Assembly (NCBI GenBank): GCA_022823505.1
Contig: JAJEIA010000096.1
Span: forward strand, 1 to 43,530
Source of the DNA: Dehalococcoidia bacterium
GTDB lineage: Bacteria > Chloroflexota > Dehalococcoidia > Lucifugimonadales > UBA3495
Direction: 5' to 3'
DNA: 43,530 nt
Below the pieces are notes generated by a model, which was not told the origin of the DNA, searched no databases, and saw nothing but the letters and a program-made list of their open reading frames with translations. Positions 1-37,619 of the stretch are shown piece by piece. Position 1 is the stretch's first letter, and each line of letters starts with the position of its first letter. Both the position numbers and the translations under genes were made by a program.

Positions 1-1623
1 CCCGCCATGCCCGTTCAAAGCAGCCAGGACCGTGTGGACACCGATCCCCAACTCAGGCATCGCGAGATATACCGTGACGTGAAGCATCTCGCGCTGGGAA
101 CGTGGCCTCTTCAGAACGCCCCCTTCAAGATGTCGGAGACGCCTGTAGTCAACAGTCGGTCAGGCCCCCTGATCGGGGGGCACAACAAGGAGGTGTTTGA
201 GGGGTTGTTGGGCATCAGTCACGAGGAACTGGTGAGCGGCTTCGCCGAGGGCATCTTCTGGCCCAAAGACCTCAGCATGGAAGACTATCCCTACTTGAAG
301 GAGATGATGGAGGATGCCTCGCTCGTACAGTGGAGTGGGAATGAGCCGATAGCGAATCCCGCTCCGGCGCCGACGCGGACACCCGACCGGAACTCCGCCG
401 GGGCCTTCGGAGGGCTGCGGGTACTGGAGCTCGCCGATGAGAAGGGGCAGTGGTGCGGCAAGCAGATGGCTGACATGGGAGCCGACGTCATCAAGATCGA
501 GCCGCCCGGTGGCGAAGCTGCCCGGACCGTGGGACCCTTCTACCAGGACCTGCCGGATCGGGAGAGCAGCCTTTACTTCTGGCATTACAACACCTCCAAG
601 CGGGGAATTACCCTGAACCTGGAGACGGAGGACGGGCGCCGGCTGTTCCGGCAAATGGCGGAGCAGGCCGATGTGATACTGGAGACCTTCCGCCCCGGTT
701 ACCTGGCCTCCCTGGGCCTGGGATACGAAGATCTGGCAAAGAATAACCCCGGGCTGATCATGTGCTCACTGACCCCCTTCGGGCAGACCGGGCCGTGGCA
801 GAACTTCCAGTCCAGCGACCTGCTGCATCTGGCAGCAGGCGGACAGATGGCCAGGTGTGGCTATGACGACGACGTGGTGCCCGGTGCGCCGCCCATCGCT
901 CCCGGCGGAGGGCAGGCCTGGCACATCGGAAGTCACTACGCCTACATCGCCATTACCGCGGCGCTGGTCAGCCGGTCGGTGACGGGGCGCGGGCAGTACA
1001 TCGATGCCTCGGTGCACGATGCCTGCGCGCTCACCACCGAGGGCCATGTGAATCAGTACATTTACAAAGGAGATGTGGTTCCCCGTAGAACAGGAGGCGG
1101 CAATACCAACATCGGGCCCAACGCCCAGGTGCTCTGCAAGGATGGAAAATACGTGAACGTCGGCCAGGTTCCCCCGCAGCGGGTGCTGACGCTTGCGCCG
1201 TGGATGGATGAGCACGGCCTGGCGGGCGACCTGCTGGACGAAAAGTACCAGGACCCAGCGGTCATCGCCGAGAACCAGTCGCATATTCGGGGGATTTTTG
1301 AAAACTTCCTCGCCAACATCCCCAGGGATGAGGCCTACCGCGGTTTGCAGACGCGTAGCTCCAACGCGGGGGCGATCCGTTCGCCGGACGAGGTCATGCA
1401 GGACCCTCACCTGGAGGACCGGGGGTTCTGGACGGATGTAGAGTATCCGGAAGTTGGCAAAACATTTCGACACCCGGGTCCGGGGGCCATCTTCAACGGC
1501 TCACCCTGGAGGATTTCCCGGCGTGCTCCTCTCATCGGGGAGCACAACGAAGAGATCCTGTGTGGCGAGTTGGGACTATCCAGGGCGGAGTTGGCGGCCA
1601 TGGCTGATGGAGGTTCGGTGTAA
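1..1623 (+). CDS. CaiB/BaiF family (type III) CoA-transferase, tandem-domain, 5' partial
   Basis: The frame is open from the first base, and the ATG at 7 is not a credible start. The first ~100 residues read as the C-terminal tail of one CaiB domain (PAMPVQ, DPQLRHR, then SGPLIGGHNKEVFEGLLGIS). A complete second domain follows, from FGGLRVLELADEKGQWCGKQMADMGADVIKIEPPGG to PLIGEHNEEILCGELGLS. The gene is therefore a fusion of two CaiB domains, most of the first lying left of the window. Family members move CoA between carboxylic acids. The second domain has the usual TSKRGITLNLE and TGRGQYIDASVHDA motifs. In my by-eye alignment the place of the catalytic Asp (Frc Asp169) holds Trp (codon 919-921, in GGGQAWHIGS), so this half may not use the standard acyl-aspartyl mechanism, or may be structural. 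Substrate unknown. Confidence 0.9.
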   Translation, partial: PAMPVQSSQDRVDTDPQLRHREIYRDVKHLALGTWPLQNAPFKMSETPVVNSRSGPLIGGHNKEVFEGLLGISHEELVSGFAEGIFWPKDLSMEDYPYLKEMMEDASLVQWSGNEPIANPAPAPTRTPDRNSAGAFGGLRVLELADEKGQWCGKQMADMGADVIKIEPPGGEAARTVGPFYQDLPDRESSLYFWHYNTSKRGITLNLETEDGRRLFRQMAEQADVILETFRPGYLASLGLGYEDLAKNNPGLIMCSLTPFGQTGPWQNFQSSDLLHLAAGGQMARCGYDDDVVPGAPPIAPGGGQAWHIGSHYAYIAITAALVSRSVTGRGQYIDASVHDACALTTEGHVNQYIYKGDVVPRRTGGGNTNIGPNAQVLCKDGKYVNVGQVPPQRVLTLAPWMDEHGLAGDLLDEKYQDPAVIAENQSHIRGIFENFLANIPRDEAYRGLQTRSSNAGAIRSPDEVMQDPHLEDRGFWTDVEYPEVGKTFRHPGPGAIFNGSPWRISRRAPLIGEHNEEILCGELGLSRAELAAMADGGSV

Positions 1624-1872: not shown

Positions 1873-2904
1873 ATGCTTGCCACCGATATTTCCGACGCCA
1901 TCGAGTTGATGTTCGAGACTGGGTGGACCGACGGTCTGCCGGTCGTGCCGCCCTCCGAGTCACTGGTCCGCCGCTTCGTGGAGATCACTGGACGGGGGGG
2001 CGACGAGCTCATCGCGGAGCTGCCGCCCCTGGGCGGACGGGCCACCGTGGAGCGCATCGCGGTCAACGCCGTCATGGCGGGCTGCGTGCCGGAGCACATG
2101 CCGGTGATCATCACCGCCCTGGAAGCGATGATGGACGACCGCTTCAACCTGCGGGGCGTGATGTGCTCCACCGGCATCCACACCCCGTTGCTGATTGTCA
2201 ACGGCCCCATCGTCAAGGAGTTGGACATCAACGGCGGCTACAACTGCTTCGGCTCCGGCTGGCGGGCCAACGCCACCATCGGCCGGGCGGTCAAGCTGGC
2301 CCTGCTCAACTTGGGCGGCGCGATACCCGGCGAGACCAACAAGGCCACCTTCGGCCACCCTGGCGCCTACACCTACTGCGTCGCCGAGGACGAGGATGCC
2401 AACCCCTGGGAGCCGATGCACGTCGAGCTCGGCTTTGCCCCGACCGACAGCACGGTGTCGGTGTTCCCGGCGGAGGCGCCACACAACATCATGTACCACG
2501 CCTCCCACTCGCGGAACTTCCTGACCGTGCTGGCCGACACCATGTGCACCCTGGGCAACGTCCAGATGTACGTCATGGGCGACACCTTCGTGGTCATCGG
2601 CCCGGAGCACGCCAAGTTCCTCCACCGGGACGGCTGGAACAAGCGGGACATCCGCCAGTTCCTCTACGAGCACGCCCGCAAGCCGGTGCGGAAACTGCGC
2701 CAGGGCGGCCCGCCCCAGGGCGACTCCCGGCGCGGCCATTTCTGGCCCCGGTACATCGACGCTGACGACGACGACCAGATGGTGCCGGTGGTCCGCGCCC
2801 CGGACCGCATCAACATTTTCGTCGCCGGCGGCGCCGGCGGCCCACACTCGGCCTACCTGCCCGGCTGGGGCTCCCGCCGGGTCACGCGAAAAATCGAACG
2901 CTAA
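1873..2904 (+). CDS. Conserved protein of unknown function, upstream partner of UGSC selenoprotein
   Basis: A soluble-looking protein of 343 residues with no signal peptide or membrane segment. It begins MLATDISDAIELMFETGW, followed by TDGLPVVPP and a conserved-looking core (ATVERIAVNAVMAGC, GVMCSTGIHTPLLIVNGP, NGGYNCFGSGWRANATIGRA, GETNKATFGHPGAYTYC). I cannot assign an enzyme activity. The ATG at 1873 is preferred because residues encoded from 1798 to 1872 (TTG or ATG starts) look unconserved and overlap another open stretch; no strong Shine-Dalgarno is seen for any of them. The stop lies 22 bases before the selenoprotein start, so the two are very probably co-transcribed. Several Cys residues (in VMCST, YNCFG and YTYC) could be redox or metal sites, which would fit a selenoprotein partner; that is inference. 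Confidence 0.8.
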   Translation: MLATDISDAIELMFETGWTDGLPVVPPSESLVRRFVEITGRGGDELIAELPPLGGRATVERIAVNAVMAGCVPEHMPVIITALEAMMDDRFNLRGVMCSTGIHTPLLIVNGPIVKELDINGGYNCFGSGWRANATIGRAVKLALLNLGGAIPGETNKATFGHPGAYTYCVAEDEDANPWEPMHVELGFAPTDSTVSVFPAEAPHNIMYHASHSRNFLTVLADTMCTLGNVQMYVMGDTFVVIGPEHAKFLHRDGWNKRDIRQFLYEHARKPVRKLRQGGPPQGDSRRGHFWPRYIDADDDDQMVPVVRAPDRINIFVAGGAGGPHSAYLPGWGSRRVTRKIER

Positions 2905-2926
2905 TTGCAGGATTGCAGAGGGAACT

Positions 2927-3484
2927 ATGACTGTCACGAACTACCAGGACCGAATGCGGGAACTGGGTTTGGCCCTGCCCATCGACCCGGACGCTGCATC
3001 CCGCTGGCGTGCCGCGCCCCGGCTGGACACCCTGCACCACAAGGTCGGCGGCTTGCTGGGCAACCGCAAGGCAAACGCCGACCTCCTGCTGCGAAACATC
3101 GGCGAGCGGATGGCCAAAGACCTGGAACTGGGCGACATCATCGCCGTGGACAAGTTCGTCTATTCGCGGCCGGCCACCGATGAGATCATCAACGACCTCT
3201 CCGACCGCTGCGATTTCGTGGTCATGGCGATTGCCGATTGAGGGTCCTGCACCGCGTGCAGTGTGCACGACGCAATGACCCTGGAGAACCTTGGCATCCC
3301 CACGGTGGTGCTCTGCACCGACCCGTTCCTGAACTCGGCCTTCCGCCAAGCCCGCACCTTTGGCCGCCCCGACTTCCACCCCCTGGGCATCCCCCATCCC
3401 CTGGGCGGTCTGACCGCCGACCAGGTCTCGGTCCGCGCCGGTGAGCTGGAGCAGGCGGTCATCGATACGCTGACAACCTACTAG
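2927..3484 (+). CDS. UGSC-motif selenoprotein (Sec encoded by TGA at 3239-3241)
   Basis: The frame opens at ATG 2927, behind AGAGGGA, and meets TGA at 3239-3241. It continues in the same frame for 80 codons to TAG at 3482. Read as selenocysteine, the product is 185 residues with Sec at 105 in D-U-G-S-C-T-A-C. The parts before the TGA (LLGNRKANADLLL, then CDFVVMAIAD) and after it (SVHDAMTLENLGIPTVVLC, FGRPDFHPLGIPHP) both match the layout of the UGSC family. In that family U (or Cys) sits in a UxxC redox pair with the Cys three residues on, here Cys108. The protein is cytoplasmic-looking and its substrate is unknown; a thiol/selenol oxidoreductase or reductase role is inferred from the motif. 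Automated callers would report only the first 104 residues, or two fragments. No selA, selB, selC or selD gene lies in the window. Confidence 0.88.
3239..3281 (+). promoter_or_regulatory. Candidate bacterial SECIS element after the Sec TGA
   Basis: GGGTC at 3242-3246 can pair with GACCC at 3277-3281, closing a stem directly after the TGA. Inside it, CGTGCA (3255-3260) pairs with TGCACG (3264-3269) around a GTG loop at 3261-3263, about 20 bases after the TGA. An alternative inner hairpin is CTGCAC-CGC-GTGCAG at 3247-3261. Bacterial SECIS hairpins sit inside the coding region just downstream of UGA and carry a G in a small apical loop, which the first fold satisfies. Folding was done by eye. 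Confidence 0.55.
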
Positions 3485-3538: not shown

Positions 3539-4432
3539 ATGGTCACCGTCGGCAGTGGCAAGTACACCTACGAGCAGGTCGAGAATTGGGAGAAGCTGCC
3601 CGAGGGATGGGAGTTGGGACAGACGGCCATCGTCACCGACTCCGAGGACCGGGTGTATCTCTTCAACCGCGGCGAGCACCCGCTGATCGTCCTGGACCGG
3701 GACGGCAACTATCTCGCCTCCTGGGGCGAGGGTGTCCTCACCGACGCCCACGGTATGTTCATCGACGACGACCAGAACCTGTACCTGCCGGTCAAGAACA
3801 GCCACGTGGTCCTCAAGTATGACCCCAAGGGCAACCTGCTGATGACCATGGGCGAGTGGGACAAGCCCTCGGACACCGGTTGGTCGGGGAACTACAGCGA
3901 CACGGTGGCCCGGGCGGCCGGGCCGTTCAACAGCCCCAGCGACATCGCCATTTCGCCGGACGGTCTCCTGTACATCTCCGACGGCTACGGCAACGCCCGG
4001 GTGCACCGGTTCACCGCGGATGGCGAGCACGTGGACTCCTGGGGCGCGCCGGGGAAGACCGCTCCCGGCGAGTTCCACGTCCCCCACGGGGTCTGGGTGC
4101 ACACGGACGGGCGGGTTTTCGTGGCCGACCGCGAGAACAACCGCATGCAGATCTTCGACTCCGAGGGCAACTTCCTGGAGCAGTGGACGGACCTGGCGCG
4201 ACCCTGCGACATCTACATCGACGATAATCTGGCGGTGTACGTGCCGGAGCTGGACGGTTTCATGTCCATCCTGGACATCGAGGGCAACGTCCTGGCCCGC
4301 TGGGGCAGCCCGTCGGACGCCGGGTGGGGCAACGGCGCCCACGCCGTCTGGGTCGACTCCCACGGGGACATCTACGTGAACCAGAACCTCGCGGGCCAGC
4401 GGCTGATCAAGTACCGCCACGTCGGCGGCTAG
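3539..4432 (+). CDS. NHL-repeat beta-propeller protein (peptidyl-hydroxyglycine lyase-like)
   Basis: 297 residues starting at ATG 3539 behind GAGGAG. It is built of NHL-type blades: repeated segments such as DRVYLFNRGEHPLIVLDRDG, NLYLPVKNSHVVLKYDPKG, LLYISDGYGNARVHRF and RVFVADRENNRMQIFDSEG, each ending near a W/G-rich turn. The best family match is the six-bladed propeller group that includes peptidyl-alpha-hydroxyglycine amidating lyase, but bacterial members are mostly uncharacterised and no activity can be assigned. There is no signal peptide, so it should be cytoplasmic. It follows the selenoprotein gene by 54 bases, in the same direction, and is likely the third gene of that cluster. 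The IS110-type element starts within a few bases of its stop codon and leaves it intact. Confidence 0.85.
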   Translation: MVTVGSGKYTYEQVENWEKLPEGWELGQTAIVTDSEDRVYLFNRGEHPLIVLDRDGNYLASWGEGVLTDAHGMFIDDDQNLYLPVKNSHVVLKYDPKGNLLMTMGEWDKPSDTGWSGNYSDTVARAAGPFNSPSDIAISPDGLLYISDGYGNARVHRFTADGEHVDSWGAPGKTAPGEFHVPHGVWVHTDGRVFVADRENNRMQIFDSEGNFLEQWTDLARPCDIYIDDNLAVYVPELDGFMSILDIEGNVLARWGSPSDAGWGNGAHAVWVDSHGDIYVNQNLAGQRLIKYRHVGG

Positions 4433-4445
4433 GGCTTGTTGACAT

Positions 4446-4686
4446 GTAACCGTCATTTGTATGTTGCGCCTGCTGGGCAGATAGGCCAATCTGCGCAGCA
4501 GGTGTGGGGGGGCGCGTCGACCGTCATTGGGTGGGTCAGGCCGTGGGACCTGACCGCGCCGAGCGGGAGTAGGACACCCCTCACACCACCAACTCGGCCC
4601 TCCGAACGGATACTGGGGCTTGGGGCCCGCATCAGCAAGTGGGGAGGACCGCAGCACAATCATATCGGCAGACAGGATCGGCAACA
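4446..4686 (+). ncRNA. Candidate IS110 bridge (seek) RNA in the left end
   Basis: IS110 elements are known to carry a guide RNA in a non-coding end, upstream of the transposase in the IS110 group. This 240-base leader has no protein-like ORF but has clear structure. GCCTGCTG (4468-4475) pairs with CAGCAGGT (4496-4503) and continues with GCAGAT (4477-4482) on ATCTGC (4489-4494), giving a long 5' stem-loop. GGTCAGG (4534-4540) pairs with CCTGACC (4549-4555) around an 8-base loop. A 5' stem-loop followed by loop-bearing stems is the expected bridge-RNA layout. I have not identified which loops read target and donor. Confidence 0.55.
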
Positions 4687-5655
4687 ATGAGCACAATGAT
4701 GACCAACGTGGTGGTGGGGATTGACGTGGGCAAAACCGGTTTGGACGCATCGGCGGACGGTGGCGCGGTGCGGTCCTTTAGCAACGATGCTGTTGGCATA
4801 TCGGATCTGGTGGCATGGGTGATGTCCCAGGGGCCGGCGCTGGCGGTGTGTGAGCCCACCGGCGGTTACGAGGGACCCCTGGTGCAGGGGCTGCGTCGGT
4901 CGGGTGTGAGGGTGCAGTTGGCCCATCCGGTCAAGGTGCGAGCCTTTGCCCAGGCCAGCGGACGCCAGGCCAAGACTGATCGTATCGACGCGCAAGCACT
5001 GTCCCACTACGGACGGGTTTTTGCGGCGTCTGCGGACCCGCCACCGGAGGCGGAGGGTGAACCGGAGCGCGGTGAGGTCCAGGCGCTGCTGCGCCGGCGG
5101 CGGCAACTGGTCAACCAACGCGTCCAGGAACTGAACCGGCTGGATCGGGCCTGGAACGCCCGAGCCCAGGCGTCCACCCGACGCCACATCGCCTGGCTGG
5201 ATGAAGAGATCGCCCGGTTGGATCAGGAGTACCGGGAAGCACTGGGCAGCAGTGAGGTCCTGTCCCAGCAAGCCGAACTCTACCGCAGCGTCCCCGGCGT
5301 GGGGGCGTTGACCGCCGCCACCCTGGTGGCCCACCTGCCCGAGTTGGGTCGGGGCGACGGCAAGGGACTGTGCTCTCTGGTGGGTTTGGCGCCCTGGTCT
5401 CGGGACAGCGGTCAACAACGCGGCTACCGGGCCATTCGCGGCGGACGGGGCGAGGTGCGTCAGGCCCTTTATATGGCGGCCCTGTCCTCGGTGCGGGTCG
5501 AAGGCCCATTGCGGCGTTTTCACCAGGGACTGCGACAACGGGGCAAGGCGGGGAAGGTGGCCCTGGTGGCGGTGATGCGCAAGCTACTCCTGCAACTGCA
5601 CGCCGTCGCCCGCCGCGGCACACCCTGGCAACCGAGTAACGCTACACCTTCCTGA
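4687..5655 (+). CDS. IS110-family transposase (DEDD recombinase)
   Basis: 322 residues from ATG 4687. The N-terminal RuvC-like DEDD domain shows GIDVGK (Asp13), CEPTGGYEG (Glu56) and KTDRIDAQAL (Asp98, Asp101). A charged, Arg-rich helical middle (residues ~135-190) is followed by the Tnp_20 domain with SVPGVGALTAATLVAHLPELG-type helix-hairpin-helix and GLAPWSRDSG with the presumed catalytic Ser. All catalytic residues are present and the length is normal for the family, so the element may still be active. The upstream ATG at 4639 lies inside the structured non-coding left end and is not used here. Confidence 0.92.
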   Translation: MSTMMTNVVVGIDVGKTGLDASADGGAVRSFSNDAVGISDLVAWVMSQGPALAVCEPTGGYEGPLVQGLRRSGVRVQLAHPVKVRAFAQASGRQAKTDRIDAQALSHYGRVFAASADPPPEAEGEPERGEVQALLRRRRQLVNQRVQELNRLDRAWNARAQASTRRHIAWLDEEIARLDQEYREALGSSEVLSQQAELYRSVPGVGALTAATLVAHLPELGRGDGKGLCSLVGLAPWSRDSGQQRGYRAIRGGRGEVRQALYMAALSSVRVEGPLRRFHQGLRQRGKAGKVALVAVMRKLLLQLHAVARRGTPWQPSNATPS

Positions 5656-31367: not shown

Positions 31368-34300
31368 TCACGGTTCGGCCGTTTTCACGGTCAGGGTGTT
31401 GGAGGCATTGTTGCGGCGCGTGAAGTCGTTCCTGCCGTCCTGGTGGATCGCCGCTCCGACGCCGGATACCGTTCCCTGAGGCAGGGTGATGGTGACCGGC
31501 TTGCCAAGGACGGTGGGCACGACGGTTATCACGTAGCTGGCGCCCGGGTCGGGTACTATGTTGGTAACGGCGCCATTTGAAATGTTGAAGTCCGAGAGTT
31601 GCAGACCTCTGACGAGCTCCACAACCGTGGCCCGCACCACGGGATCAGTGAAGGTCAAATCGGTGCGGAAAGGACCCGTTGCAACGTCGCCAGGGTACGA
31701 CGTGAAATCGTGAGGATGGAACACGCCGCTCAACTCCACGTCCAGTTCGGCATCGTTCCGATTGGGAGCGTGCACCTCCAGGCGGCTCGATATGCCGAGG
31801 ATGGTATCGCCCCGACGCATGCGCAACTGGTAAGTTAAGCCCCCGCCGCGGCCGGAGCTGGTGACGTGGGTGGTCCGGACGCACATTGACGGGCAGCTGG
31901 TGTAGTTATTCCCCCGGGCGAACTCTAGCCACTCTCTGAAATCCTCGGTGTCAGTTTCGTCGATGGGGACTCCGTAGAAGGGCTTCCAGCGCATTTCAAA
32001 TATCACGTCTTCGTCGGTCGGGATGGGAGTTAGCATCTGCCAGCAGAGGTCCACCTCGGCATTTTTGTCGGGCACGCGCAATCCGCAAAGGAAGAGCAGC
32101 GTGGGCACTATTGTGGAATCCACCTTGTGGCCCGCATCCGTATCGACGCCGCCATGCGTCAAGCGAGCGTCTCTGTGGGTGGTCATGTGGCGGATGGCGC
32201 CACCATTGAGAGAAAGTGGGTTTGATCTCACAGAAATGCCGTCGTTATCCGCATCCCCGGGCTGGACCACGCGCTCAAAATAAAGGTTTTGGGAGCCGGA
32301 GCCGGCTGTGTATCTGAAGGGAACATCACGACCAAGGTGGCCACGTTCGATAAACCTGACCGTTAGAAACGGGACGCCATTTTCGGTGTCGACGACCACC
32401 AGCGAATCGAAGGTGACCCTGAACCTGATGATCTCTCCCTCACCGTAGGTACCTTCGCCGGCGACTGGGTTCGAGGCGATTTTGATGCCTCCAGGGATAA
32501 TCTCCGGTTGCTTGTTGATCCGATGCCGCGGGTCGGGACGCAGAACGGGGTGGGTGATCAGCGCATTCTCGTTGGTGTAGGCGTGCTTGATGGTCGCTCC
32601 GTTGCGAACCAGGCTATCTTCCCTCAGCGCCGCCCCGGATTCAGAATGGTCCACGGGTCCCAGGGTGTAGGTGAAAGTAAGTATCCGGCTGGTGGGATCT
32701 ACTGATGCGAAGGTGGCATTGCGGTGGCGAACTCCCGACGTGAGCACAACATAAGGCCTGCCGTTGGTGGTATCCACCGACACCGGTTGATTGAAAATAA
32801 TGGACACTTCGATCTCGTCCCCGGGCGCGTAAGTATTGTCCCATCCGGGGTCGCTGGTGATCGCTACCTTCCGGATTTCCGCCCACGTTCGAGTGAGGGT
32901 GACGGTATAGGTTCGGGTGATCAGACCGCTTTTGGACACCGTGACCGTGATGGTGTTGGCGCCCCTGGCTAAGTCAACTTGGTGCCCGGGCGTATCGGTG
33001 TCCGAGTCCTCGGGCGAGATGCTGACCGTGGTCCCGGTGTCGGCGGAAGCCGCGACGGTGGTTCGCGGGACGGCGCGCCCCACCACTGCCGTGTAGTTCG
33101 CTATTCCGGGATTGAAGGTCGGCGAAAGAGTTCCATCGCCCAGGGACAGGGCAGTGAGCATGGCGCCCTGGAGCCCGCCGTTAACCTTGTGGCCGGGGAA
33201 CCGGCCGGCGTCGCCGGGTCCGGCATGCGTTAGTACAGCATCCTGTGTCGTGGTTGCGTGCGTGATGGTTCCGCCGTTCAATCGCAGCTGGTTTGCTTCC
33301 ATGGTAAGGCCGTTGTAATCGAGGTCGCCGGACTGCACCTCATACTGGAACACCAGCGTGGATGTGCCCGAGCCTCGGGCGTAGACCAGTTCCTTGGGAA
33401 GCAGTGGCACCCCCTGCGATGGCTGGAAATTCATCCTCAAAGAGGGGGTACCCTGCGCGGTGTCCACCACCACGTTGGAGTCGAAGGTGACGCTGAACGC
33501 TATGATCTCTCCGACTCCGTAGGCATCTGCGCTGGCCAGGGGTGTGGAAGTGATGCGAACGCCGTTCGTGACGATGTTGGGGATCTTGTTGACCAGGTGG
33601 CCGGCGTGGTCGGACACCGGGTCGTGGGAGAGAATTGCAGGCTGGCCGCTTCCGGCGTCGGTGATGGACCCACCATTGAGGGCAATGTAATCGGCGTCGA
33701 CGGAGATACCGTCCTGGTCGCTATCCCCGGCTACCAGCGTGTAGGAGAAGGTGAGGATGCGCCCGGTGGAGTCGATGGCGGAGTAAGCGGCGTTGCGGTC
33801 GTTATCGCCCACCTTGATGGTCACGTCGGGAGTACCGCCGCCGGTGTTCACGGAGACCGGCTTGTCGAACTTGACGTCGAGCGACACCACATCGCCGGTG
33901 GCGTAGGTCGCGTCTGCACCCGGGTCGCTGGAGAATGCCGCCGACAGCGCTTCCGCATTGAAGTACACTGTAACCTTGTACCTGGTGGTGAGGTGATTCA
34001 TGGCGAACGTCGTGACGGTAATCTCGGTGCCGTGGCCGACGTTTACCTGGTGTCCGTTCAGCCCACCGTCGCCGTCGTCGGGAGAGACTCTGACGCTTAT
34101 TCCCGAGTCGGCGGCGGCCGCCACCGTGGTTCGTGTGGTACCCGGGATCGCTGTTCCGACGTAGTTGGTTATTCCTGCCTCGAAGGCGGGAGACAACGTA
34201 ATATCGGTGAGCGACAGCGTGGACAGCGTGGCGCGCGGAGCATTCAAGTCGCCGTCCACCTTGTGGTCGGAGAAAACGCCATCCGTGCCGGGTATTGCGT

Positions 34301-37300
34301 GGTTCAGGTTCGCATCTCTGCCGGTGGTTGAATGCTTGATGGTGGCGCTGTTGAGGACTAGTTGATTGGCCGCCACGGCCAGGCCATTATCATCGACGTC
34401 GCCGATCTGCACGACGTACTCGAACACCAGGGAGGCGGTTCCGGTCCCGTTCGTGTAAGAAAGGTTCCTGGTAACCGGAATACCACCTCCTTCGGAGAAC
34501 TTCATTGCCAGGGTTGGCACGCCATTGGTGGTGTCCACCACCACCTTGGAGTCGAAGGTGACGGTGAAGGAGATGGTCTCTGCGAAACCGTAGGTGTCGG
34601 ACGTGGCGAGGGGCGTGGAGGTGATTGCCACGCCGCCGGTAACGATCCTGGGTATCTTGTTGACGCGGTGGCCGGCTCGGTCGGCAATGGCATCGTGGAC
34701 GAGAACAGCCTCCGTATTGATGGCACTGTCCGTGATCGTCGCGCCATTCAACGAGAGCGAATTTGCGTCGATGGAGATACCGTCCTGGTCGCTGTCTGAG
34801 GCCTTGACGGTGTAGGAAAAAGTGAGGATGCGGTTGGTCGCGTCGATGGCGGAGTAACCCGCGCTCCGGTCACTGCCGCCCAGGTTGATGATGAGGCTGG
34901 GGGTGCCGTCGGCGGTGTCCACGGAGACGGGGTAATTGAATGTGACCGCGACGGCGATGGTGTCATCTTCCGCATAGGTGGCGTCCGTGCCGGCGTCGCT
35001 GGTGATCGCGACGGACTGCACCGCCGTAGTGAATTGAACCGTGACGGCATAAGTGGTGGAGATTGTGCCATCGGCGGAGGTGGTGATGGTAATTTCGGTA
35101 CCCTGGGTGATGTCCACCTGGTGCCCGTCCGTACCTCCGTCGGCGTCGGCAGGCGAGATGGTGATCGCGGTTCCCGAGTCAGCGGTCGCGGAAACCGTGG
35201 TTCGAGTGGTTCCCGCGGTAGCCGCTCCGATGTAAGTGGTGGTTTCGGCTTCGAAGATGGGAGACAGGGTGGCGTCTGAGAGCGAAAGGGTGGACAGTGT
35301 GGCACGCGGAGGGTTGAGGCTACCGTCCACCTTGTGGCCGGAGTCACCGAGGCTTGGTACTGAGTGCCGAAGGTCGGCGTTCCGGTTGGTCGTGTAATGC
35401 CTGATCGTGCCCCCGTGTAGGCGCAGCTGGTTGGCGCGGACCGCGAGTCCAGATCTGTCGCGGTCAGCGGACTGCACGACGTACTCGAAGGTCAGGGTAT
35501 CGGTGCCCGACCCGCCGACATAGGTCAAGTCCTTGTCCCGGGCGCTGACGATGCCGCGATGCCAGAACCTCATTCTCAGGGCGGGGGTGCCACCGGAGGT
35601 GTCCACCACCACCACGGAGTCGAAGGTGATGGTGAAGGAGATGGTCTCTCCGGCTCCGTAGGTGTCGGATGTGGCGAGGGGAGTGGAGGTGATGGCGATG
35701 CTGCCGGAGGGGATTGTGGGGTATTTGTTGACCCGGTGGCTGGGCTGGTTCTCCAGGGCGTCGTGATCCAGGACCGCATCCTCATCTGTGGCCATGTCCT
35801 TGATTGACCCGCCGTTCAGGGACAGCGAATTGGCGCGTATTGCGATGCCGCTCTGGTCACCGTCCGCAGACACCACTGTGTAGGCGAAGGACAGGACGCG
35901 GTTGGTCGCGTCGATGGAAGTGTAACCAGCGTTACGGTTTTTGCTGCCCGACCTGATGGTCAAATGGGGGGTGCCCTCCGCAGTGTCCACGGAGACGGGG
36001 TTATTGAACGTGACCGCGAGGGTGATGGTGTCATCGTCCGCATAGGTGGCGTCGGCGCCGGCGTCGCTGGTGACCGCGATGGACTGGACCGACGCAGCGA
36101 AGTGGATCGCGACGGTATAGGTGGTGGGGAGTGTGCCATCGGCGGAGGCGGTGACAGCGATTTCAGCACCCTGGATGATGTCCACCTGGTGTCCGTCGAT
36201 GCCGTCCTTGGAGTCGGACGGCAAGATGGTTACCGTTGTGCCGGACTCAGCGGTGGCCGTAACCGTAGTGTGGATGGTTCCAACAGTAGTGATTCCGAGG
36301 TAGCGGGCGGTTTCGGCTTCGAAGGTGGGGGACAGGGTGGTGTCGGAGAGCGAAAGGGTGGACAGGGTGGCGCGCGGAGGGCTGAGGCTGCCGTCCACTT
36401 TGTGCTCGGAGTCGCCGAGGCTTGGCGCTGAGTGGCTGAGGTCGGCGTTCCGGTTGGTCGTGTAGTGCCTGATGGTGCCGCCATGGAAACGCAGCTGGTT
36501 GGCGCGGACCGCGAGTCCAGATCTGTCGATGTCAGCGGGCTGCACGACGTACTCGAACGTCAGGGTATCGGTGCCCGACCCGCCGACATAGGTCAAGTCC
36601 TTGTCCCGGGCGCCGATGATGCCGGAATGCCAGAATCGCATCCTGAGGGCGGGCGTGCCACCACTGATGTCCACCACCACCACGGAGTCGAAGGTGATAG
36701 TGAAGGAGATGGTCTCTCCGGCTCCGTAGGTGTCGGATGTGGCGAGGGGAGTGGAGGTGATGGCGATGCCGCCGGAGGGGATTGTGGGGAATTTGTTGAC
36801 CCGGTGGGCGGGCTGGTCGTCCAGGGGGGCGTGATCCAGGACCGCATCCTCATCTGTGGCCATGTCCTTGATTGATCCGCCGTTCAGGGACAGCACGTTG
36901 GGCCGTATGGAGATACCGCTCTGGTCGCCGTCGTCGGCCACGACGGTGTAGGAGAAGGTGAGGATTTTGTTTGTGGCGTCGATGGAGGAGAATCTGGCAA
37001 CCCGGTTATGGCTGCCCGACCTGATGGTCAAATGGGGGGTGCCGTCGGCAATGTCCACGGAGACGGGTCGGTCGAAAGTCGCGCTCAGGGTGATAACATC
37101 ATTCGTGGCATAGGTCGCATCGGTTCCCGCGTCGCTAGTGACTGCTACGGACTGGACCGACGCAGCGCCGAATGAAACGACCACCGAATAGGTGGTGTCC
37201 AGTTGATTGGTGGCGGAGGTGGTGATGTCGATTTCGGTCCCGTGGACTACGTCCACCTGGTGTCCGTCGGTTAGGTCGTCAGCGTCGGCAGGGGAGATGG

Positions 37301-37619
37301 TCGCCGTGGTTCCCGACTCTGGGGTAGCGGAAACGGTGGTTTGCGTGGTCCCTGCGGCAGCCATTCCAACGTAATCGGTCGTTCCGGCTTCGAACGCTGG
37401 AGACAACGTGATGTCGCTGAGCGACAGTGCCGACAACGCGGACTGTGTTGTTTGCGCTGCCGCCGGCTGCGTCCCCAACCAAAATGCAGCGCCCACCGCG
37501 AACGTCGCCACGAATAACGCGACAACCAACATCAAACGTCGCCATGCCCTTTGACCATGCACGAGACCACAACGGCGCAATGTCTTCCCACTCAGTGTTC
37601 TTGCTCCACGACTTTCCAC
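31368..37619 (-). CDS. Giant secreted surface protein with five ~357-residue repeats
   Basis: 2083 residues from GTG 37619, with GAGGG upstream. Residues ~25-56 are a signal peptide (RRLMLVVALFVATFAVGAAF, then cleavage near PAAAQT). Five repeat units follow. Each has a cadherin-like beta-sandwich (ATLSTLSLSDTTLSP...DGHQVDI...TTYTV) and then two related blocks with VTSDAGTDATYADDDTI, FNNPVSVDTAEGTPHLTI, ITSTPLATSDTYGAGETISF and GTDTLTFEYVVQ, resembling SwmB-type repeats of bacterial surface proteins. The last ~250 residues are unique: a Cys-containing part (VDLCWQMLTPIPTDEDVIFE), then an Ig-like domain (LQLSDFNISNGAVTNIVPDP). No sortase motif or membrane anchor is visible at the end. Likely role: adhesion or surface coat; this is inference. 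Confidence 0.88.
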   Translation of the reverse strand: MESRGARTLSGKTLRRCGLVHGQRAWRRLMLVVALFVATFAVGAAFWLGTQPAAAQTTQSALSALSLSDITLSPAFEAGTTDYVGMAAAGTTQTTVSATPESGTTATISPADADDLTDGHQVDVVHGTEIDITTSATNQLDTTYSVVVSFGAASVQSVAVTSDAGTDATYATNDVITLSATFDRPVSVDIADGTPHLTIRSGSHNRVARFSSIDATNKILTFSYTVVADDGDQSGISIRPNVLSLNGGSIKDMATDEDAVLDHAPLDDQPAHRVNKFPTIPSGGIAITSTPLATSDTYGAGETISFTITFDSVVVVDISGGTPALRMRFWHSGIIGARDKDLTYVGGSGTDTLTFEYVVQPADIDRSGLAVRANQLRFHGGTIRHYTTNRNADLSHSAPSLGDSEHKVDGSLSPPRATLSTLSLSDTTLSPTFEAETARYLGITTVGTIHTTVTATAESGTTVTILPSDSKDGIDGHQVDIIQGAEIAVTASADGTLPTTYTVAIHFAASVQSIAVTSDAGADATYADDDTITLAVTFNNPVSVDTAEGTPHLTIRSGSKNRNAGYTSIDATNRVLSFAYTVVSADGDQSGIAIRANSLSLNGGSIKDMATDEDAVLDHDALENQPSHRVNKYPTIPSGSIAITSTPLATSDTYGAGETISFTITFDSVVVVDTSGGTPALRMRFWHRGIVSARDKDLTYVGGSGTDTLTFEYVVQSADRDRSGLAVRANQLRLHGGTIRHYTTNRNADLRHSVPSLGDSGHKVDGSLNPPRATLSTLSLSDATLSPIFEAETTTYIGAATAGTTRTTVSATADSGTAITISPADADGGTDGHQVDITQGTEITITTSADGTISTTYAVTVQFTTAVQSVAITSDAGTDATYAEDDTIAVAVTFNYPVSVDTADGTPSLIINLGGSDRSAGYSAIDATNRILTFSYTVKASDSDQDGISIDANSLSLNGATITDSAINTEAVLVHDAIADRAGHRVNKIPRIVTGGVAITSTPLATSDTYGFAETISFTVTFDSKVVVDTTNGVPTLAMKFSEGGGIPVTRNLSYTNGTGTASLVFEYVVQIGDVDDNGLAVAANQLVLNSATIKHSTTGRDANLNHAIPGTDGVFSDHKVDGDLNAPRATLSTLSLTDITLSPAFEAGITNYVGTAIPGTTRTTVAAAADSGISVRVSPDDGDGGLNGHQVNVGHGTEITVTTFAMNHLTTRYKVTVYFNAEALSAAFSSDPGADATYATGDVVSLDVKFDKPVSVNTGGGTPDVTIKVGDNDRNAAYSAIDSTGRILTFSYTLVAGDSDQDGISVDADYIALNGGSITDAGSGQPAILSHDPVSDHAGHLVNKIPNIVTNGVRITSTPLASADAYGVGEIIAFSVTFDSNVVVDTAQGTPSLRMNFQPSQGVPLLPKELVYARGSGTSTLVFQYEVQSGDLDYNGLTMEANQLRLNGGTITHATTTQDAVLTHAGPGDAGRFPGHKVNGGLQGAMLTALSLGDGTLSPTFNPGIANYTAVVGRAVPRTTVAASADTGTTVSISPEDSDTDTPGHQVDLARGANTITVTVSKSGLITRTYTVTLTRTWAEIRKVAITSDPGWDNTYAPGDEIEVSIIFNQPVSVDTTNGRPYVVLTSGVRHRNATFASVDPTSRILTFTYTLGPVDHSESGAALREDSLVRNGATIKHAYTNENALITHPVLRPDPRHRINKQPEIIPGGIKIASNPVAGEGTYGEGEIIRFRVTFDSLVVVDTENGVPFLTVRFIERGHLGRDVPFRYTAGSGSQNLYFERVVQPGDADNDGISVRSNPLSLNGGAIRHMTTHRDARLTHGGVDTDAGHKVDSTIVPTLLFLCGLRVPDKNAEVDLCWQMLTPIPTDEDVIFEMRWKPFYGVPIDETDTEDFREWLEFARGNNYTSCPSMCVRTTHVTSSGRGGGLTYQLRMRRGDTILGISSRLEVHAPNRNDAELDVELSGVFHPHDFTSYPGDVATGPFRTDLTFTDPVVRATVVELVRGLQLSDFNISNGAVTNIVPDPGASYVITVVPTVLGKPVTITLPQGTVSGVGAAIHQDGRNDFTRRNNASNTLTVKTAEP
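32080..37450 (-). repeat. Five tandem ~1.07-kb coding repeats
   Basis: The ATLSTLSLSD-encoding segment recurs at about 37413, 36342, 35275, 34204 and 33136, a period of 1067-1071 bases. Units 2 and 3, and parts of unit 1, are close to identical at DNA level over hundreds of bases (for example 35395-35700 versus 36455-36760), while units 4 and 5 are more diverged. This shows recent duplication or gene conversion in the N-terminal half. Confidence 0.9.

Follow-up and report, generated by a model that had tools for sequence, protein, structure and literature searches.

A UGSC-family gene containing an in-frame TGA and the unnamed gene immediately upstream of it appear, from comparison of their sequences, to form a two-gene module in a SAR202-type Dehalococcoidia bacterium. 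The module lies in the window, the whole stretch of DNA that was analyzed (43,530 nt of contig JAJEIA010000096.1; Table 1). UGSC selenoproteins are known in kind and the family has been in print since 2008; what raises the finding beyond a known UGSC selenoprotein is its steady, unnamed partner and its relation to GrdB. We rate as slightly better than even the proposal that UGSC and its partner constitute a two-subunit selenoenzyme that cleaves a C-X bond as GrdB and PrdB do, without GrdE.

Table 1. Coordinates of the features discussed (positions in the window)
Feature	Position	Strand	Basis
CoA-transferase family III protein	7..1623	+	profile matches
Partner protein, 343 aa, unnamed family	1873..2904	+	start set by orthologues; frame open from TTG 1798
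Spacer between partner and UGSC, 22 nt, Shine-Dalgarno-like AGAGGG at 2917-2922	2905..2926	+	sequence
UGSC family protein, 185 aa, predicted selenoprotein with Sec105	2927..3484	+	frame, profile matches, orthologue comparison
TGA probably read as selenocysteine, U105 of DUGSC	3239..3241	+	in-frame TGA, homologues, Sec machinery
SECIS-like stem-loop from the UGA on, -20.7 kcal/mol in 48 nt	3239..3286	+	synonymous-codon shuffles, moderate
NHL-repeat beta-propeller	3539..4432	+	profile matches

The UGSC gene and its in-frame TGA

The sequence-only reading had joined two open frames across one TGA, with D-U-G-S-C at residues 104-108, and this was borne out: the gene runs from ATG to TAG with a single internal TGA, at residue 105, and the surrounding residues (D104-U105-G106-S107-C108) contain the [U/C]-G-S-C that defines the UGSC family. 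A database search with the joined protein bore out the proposed family membership, with matches to PF24696 at 155.4 bits (cut-off 25) and to NF041046 at 130.6 bits (cut-off 125); the protein shares the length and motif of this family, most members of which contain Sec. The open halves are no evidence by themselves because in this G+C-rich window 29 pairs of open frames are joined by a TGA (≥100 codons before it and ≥80 after), and the probability of 80 open codons arising in the window by chance is 0.23. The evidence comes instead from homology and conservation. In all 10 full-length orthologues of the genus, the TGA is kept and there is no second in-frame stop; an eleventh (from G004), split by a frameshift, was omitted from the comparison. 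Codons 3' of the TGA showed 151 synonymous and 43 non-synonymous differences among the 10 orthologues, versus a neutral 191 and 516, indicating that purifying selection acts on the codons after the TGA. In a wider sample of 68 UGSC relatives, the Sec position was occupied by TGA in 62 and by Cys in 6 (Natrialba, Natronomonas, two Mycobacterium, Candidimonas, and a Sphingomonas MAG). The sequence-only reading had named homologues ending at the TGA, or the absence of any Cys or Sec homologue aligned at the site, as findings that would count against it; the orthologues compared read past the TGA, and both residues are represented among the relatives. Collectively, these comparisons indicate that the window gene encodes a Sec-containing protein. 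Gene calling with the standard code splits the gene at the TGA, and splits a fused form described below inside its first domain.

Each of the 14 genomes of the genus contained UGSC matches, 6-10 apiece and 114 in total. Exactly one TGA was present in 111; of the remaining three, two are fragments and one has an in-frame deletion that spans the motif. The motif segment is missing in frame from a G004 copy (L097:5577-6110), through what may be either genuine loss or faulty assembly. The second Cys of the motif was replaced by Ser in 2 of 61 UGSC rows; two relatives (L126 and L127) carry U-G-S-S in place of U-G-S-C, so this Cys is not absolute. The nearest named loci were those of the uncultured Dehalococcoidia chromosome OX638345.1 and SAR202 cluster bacterium Casp-Chloro-G2 (L099, L101).

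The presence of Sec machinery, expected by the sequence-only reading, was confirmed in the source genome. A tRNA-Sec (selC) with anticodon UCA scored 66.4 bits (cut-off 47), selA 544 bits, and selD, with an in-frame TGA of its own, 374 bits. An N-terminal half of selB (307 bits) runs into the end of its contig, and a C-terminal portion of SelB (30.8 bits) sits at the end of a different one; the two are presumably one gene. A genome clearly without selB and tRNA-Sec would have spoken against that reading, and both were matched. The TGA of selD (G000:C40:43713-44636, L027) is near the N-terminus, and SelD is itself likely a selenoprotein. Of the 34 UGSC genomes, 33 gave a strong selA match (E ≤4e-123), compared with 210 of 267 other Chloroflexota (p 0.004), but with selA so widespread in the phylum this co-occurrence is only mildly supportive. 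The remaining UGSC genome, G230 (86% complete), gave no strong selA match.

The sequence beginning at the UGA was also assessed for a SECIS-like structure, using synonymous-codon shuffles for comparison. Shuffled versions of the window stem-loop gave -13.0 +/- 3.6, with 4.5% as low as the native sequence (7% without the UGA itself), which provides moderate support for the window gene. Over the family, folding of the 42-48 nt from the UGA gave a mean z of about -1.9 (58 of the 62 TGA loci), and 52-60% of these 58 loci reached p 0.05 or less, compared to 3-14% in six control windows from the same genes; the six Cys relatives gave a mean z of about -0.5, with one at p 0.015. For 38 related loci of the genus, mean z was -0.61 (42 nt) and -0.84 (48 nt), with 8% and 18%, respectively, at p 0.05 or less and 3-13% in control windows. 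The test omitted L099-L101 and L148 from the 62 TGA loci, and L095 and L097 from the 40 genus loci. Excess RNA folding is strong over the UGSC family but weak in the genus of the window, where it barely exceeds the controls. This weakness, together with the frequency of open halves in a G+C-rich window, is what could be said for reading the TGA as a genuine stop or a sequencing error in a truncated gene. That reading is highly improbable, and was rejected, given the conserved TGA and the selection 3' of it in the orthologues, and the TGA or Cys codons at the site in the 68 relatives; the Sec machinery of the genome also argues against it.

A partner protein and the two-gene module

The upstream gene encodes a member of a conserved protein family (~340 residues) without a Pfam or NCBIfam match: 25 members searched against both databases returned nothing significant (best E 0.06), and PDB sequence searches with the partner and with UGSC gave no significant match. 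The Cys of its NAVMAGC motif (codon 2083-2085) is nearly invariant, being Cys in 68 of 69 rows. Wide stretches were fetched for 40 of the 114 genus matches (all of those in G000, G011, G012, and G013, the other stretches being one each from ten more genomes, with two from G004), and the partner was present in 38. It was missing at L080 and L082, and at L077 there is a partial copy ~5 kb off.

A GTDB search with the partner alone identified at least 582 confirmed stretches, and the 80 best were carried forward. UGSC occurred on the same strand in 68 of these 80 loci (62 with Sec and 6 with Cys), upstream of the partner in 45 and downstream in 23, and the gap was <250 nt in 65 of the 68. UGSC was not found in the stretch at the other 12, most of which have room for it. 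At L106, L121, L139, L156, and L166, the partner is present with room for UGSC and UGSC is absent (the L139 partner also lacks the conserved Cys), and at L104 and L109 the stretch is cut on one flank by a contig end near the partner. The Poribacteria loci (L123, L125, L137, L146, and L149) possess a partner without UGSC, for which the main match is shorter and the C-terminal part matches separately; here the partner may act with another protein. A haloarchaeon with the Cys form of UGSC contains a second partner copy with an internal stop (L165:6635-7630), possibly decayed. The module was also found in MAG records titled Bordetella parapertussis (L150, L162, and L167), labels that look doubtful.

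The association extends to whole genomes and to single polypeptides. Among 301 Chloroflexota genomes, UGSC was detected in 34, the partner in 32, and both in 30 (Fisher 1e-34). G086 and G191 have the partner without UGSC and G264 has UGSC without a partner match; three of the 34 UGSC genomes (G181, G182, and G234) have only matches at E 1e-4 or weaker, those in G182 being at GrdB genes. Natural fusions of UGSC and partner were read as a single frame of 572-574 aa with Sec103 in U-G-G-C in four of four genomes, one copy in each, and every one of the 14 genus genomes has a UGSC match inside an open frame of 577-614 aa (partner half confirmed in four). When paralogous loci were compared between four genomes, 66 of 78 comparisons placed the best UGSC match and the best partner match at one locus; nine of the 12 discordant cases led to the partner-less (L080 and L082) or partial (L077) loci and three concerned L085, which has no orthologue, and the partial L077 partner was itself omitted from the comparison. 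These results suggest that the paralogous pairs have been inherited together, and they support a gene partnership between UGSC and the upstream protein. Fusion of UGSC with a domain termed "Unknown_1" has been reported (PMC2398784), and this domain is very likely the same family as the partner. In the part of that paper available to us, UGSC is not described as having a general gene partner or as being related to GrdB.

The remaining neighbors are less consistent. All 11 orthologous stretches retain the NHL gene at ≥91% identity, and three paralogous stretches have it at 37-38%. CoA transferases occur in only 3 of the 11 orthologous stretches, at 25-37% identity, so the CoA-transferase gene belongs only loosely to the UGSC context. 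An IS110-type transposase gene (4639-5655; NF033542, 197.6 bits) lies just 3' of the NHL gene, and the minus strand contains an open frame of 2083 codons at 31368-37619. In a survey of nearest genes (76 of 95 scanned), TctC was found in 13 of 76 and each other listed family in three or fewer; we presume that the TctC lead may merely mirror the number of TctC genes in Betaproteobacteria. Neighbors across loci include CoA transferase III, TPP enzymes, luciferase-like monooxygenases, TctC, and NHL/SGL propellers. They suggest catabolism of organic acids, but no substrate is indicated because the immediate neighbors are diverse.

Relation to GrdB and PrdB

Profile comparison by hhalign matched UGSC to the C-terminal Sec domain of GrdB (95.5%, E 1.5e-8, 77 columns), with Sec aligned on Sec. 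The GrdB-like rows came from Chloroflexota and were read past the end of the Pfam model, with 6 of 15 long matches used in the alignment. PrdB-like singletons matched the UGSC profile at E 1.4e-4, and control pairs of unrelated profiles gave E 0.49 and 0.49. TIGR01917 was matched by 13 of 26 UGSC rows at E 1 or less (best 5e-5). UGSC scored far below the GrdB/PrdB cut-offs (21.2 bits vs. 602.2 for TIGR01917, 19.4 vs. 65.45 for TIGR01918, and 14.5 vs. 300 for TIGR04483), and for this reason the alignments identify UGSC as a relative of the GrdB family and not as a member. As in GrdB/GrdF/GrdH and PrdB (PF07355, TIGR01917, and TIGR04483), Sec is located at a strand end in U-G-[ST], with E-x-x-G-[IL]-P next and then H-P 47-52 residues past Sec; H-P is present in three of the six GrdB-like copies read. 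In contrast to GrdB, UGSC has only 185 residues, lacks the GrdB N-terminal part, falls below the curated cut-offs, and has a partner that is not GrdE-like. The partner was rejected as a GrdE homologue (hhalign 0.1%, with 9 of 26 matches in the GrdE alignment) and as a relative of UGSC or GrdB (the two profile comparisons at E 0.49). Searches of the source genome (G000) and of G011 with the PF09338 profile found nothing. The source genome also encodes a PrdB-like singleton (G000:C56:2568-2972, L193) whose U-P-L-C lies immediately beyond the point where the GRDB Pfam model stops; this protein, and several other Chloroflexota copies as well, are probably additional selenoproteins.

The AlphaFold2 model of UGSC (61 rows; pLDDT 94.5) contains five strands alternating with helices and positions Sec immediately before helix 106-121. 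The alignments used for modeling comprised the window with 60 of 68 UGSC loci or 68 of 80 partner loci, and omitted short or cut copies, two mycobacterial loci, the three Bordetella parapertussis-labeled records, L119, and L148. In a Foldseek search of the PDB with the UGSC model, the best 50 of 1715 matches included lumazine synthases and flavodiiron proteins (query-normalized TM ≤0.48), and thioredoxin was absent among those 50. The predicted fold thus appears Rossmann-like, rather than the thioredoxin-like fold supposed when the "UGSC-containing protein" was described in 2008 (PMC2398784). Class I fumarase was a weak structural match to the partner model (pLDDT 92.5; best E 5e-4, TM 0.30), and a profile search of eight genomes with PF05681 gave no match.

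A proposed selenoenzyme

The sequence-only reading stated that the function of the UGSC family is not established, which agrees with the literature searched. In GrdB-type proteins, attack by Sec on an activated carbon is considered to create a selenoether that is resolved by a thiol (PMC10298544). In the proposed two-subunit enzyme, UGSC would be the Rossmann-like subunit, homologous to the Sec-bearing C-terminal domain of GrdB/PrdB, and the partner would hold a small substrate. The Sec selenolate, positioned where a strand gives way to a helix, would attack the activated carbon; C108 of U-x-x-C, or another thiol, would resolve the adduct to generate a selenenylsulfide, which a cellular thiol system would then reduce. 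Overall, a C-X bond (where X is N, S, O, or halogen) would be cleaved reductively. The role of C108 is doubtful because the equivalent residue is Gly in three of six GrdB-like copies, and because of the Ser found in two of the UGSC rows. We infer the complex, the reaction, the resolving residue, and the substrate alike. Paralogous loci in one genome may represent substrate-specific versions, by analogy with GrdB-bearing bacteria, where a single reductase is said to be supplied by several B complexes, each with its own substrate (PMC10838667). The same report links GrdB/GrdE-like genes to C-F cleavage in Synergistota. There, FarB/FarE, linked to monofluoroacetate, resemble the UGSC system in the recruitment of GrdB-type proteins to another C-X bond and in having several paralogues per genome, but they are found in anaerobes and have a GrdE-type subunit, whereas UGSC pairs with another partner (PMC10838667).

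Several observations weigh against such an enzyme: no similarity to GrdE was detected in the partner, and UGSC scores far below the GrdB cut-offs; 12 of the best 80 partner loci are without UGSC, the neighbors are diverse, and G264 and G230 are exceptions; and the fumarase likeness of the partner model and the RNA folding in the genus are both weak. The literature favors a thioredoxin-like thiol oxidoreductase or peroxidase, for which the partner would be a substrate or accessory protein. The U-x-x-C motif is in keeping with this, but we consider it unlikely, since the order of strands and helices in the model is Rossmann/flavodoxin-like, no thioredoxin appears among the 50 PDB matches listed of 1715, and the profile homology leads to GrdB. 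The diversity of catabolic neighbors might instead reflect a redox sensor or regulator of adjacent catabolic genes. We regard this as quite improbable because neither protein has a significant DNA-binding or signaling domain in Pfam or NCBIfam, and several paralogous pairs per genome, together with the fusions, suit an enzyme better.

The module is distributed across SAR202 and other Chloroflexota, Proteobacteria, and Rokubacteria, with the Cys form in haloarchaea and mycobacteria. With a steady partner, natural fusions, and homology to GrdB, what was an "unknown redox protein" becomes the subject of an enzyme hypothesis that can be tested. With confidence a little short of even, we suggest that UGSC and its partner represent an undescribed class of selenoenzyme, a stripped-down protein B operating without GrdE that would cleave C-X bonds of environmental organic compounds, and that the SAR202 paralogues would form a substrate-specific panel of such enzymes.
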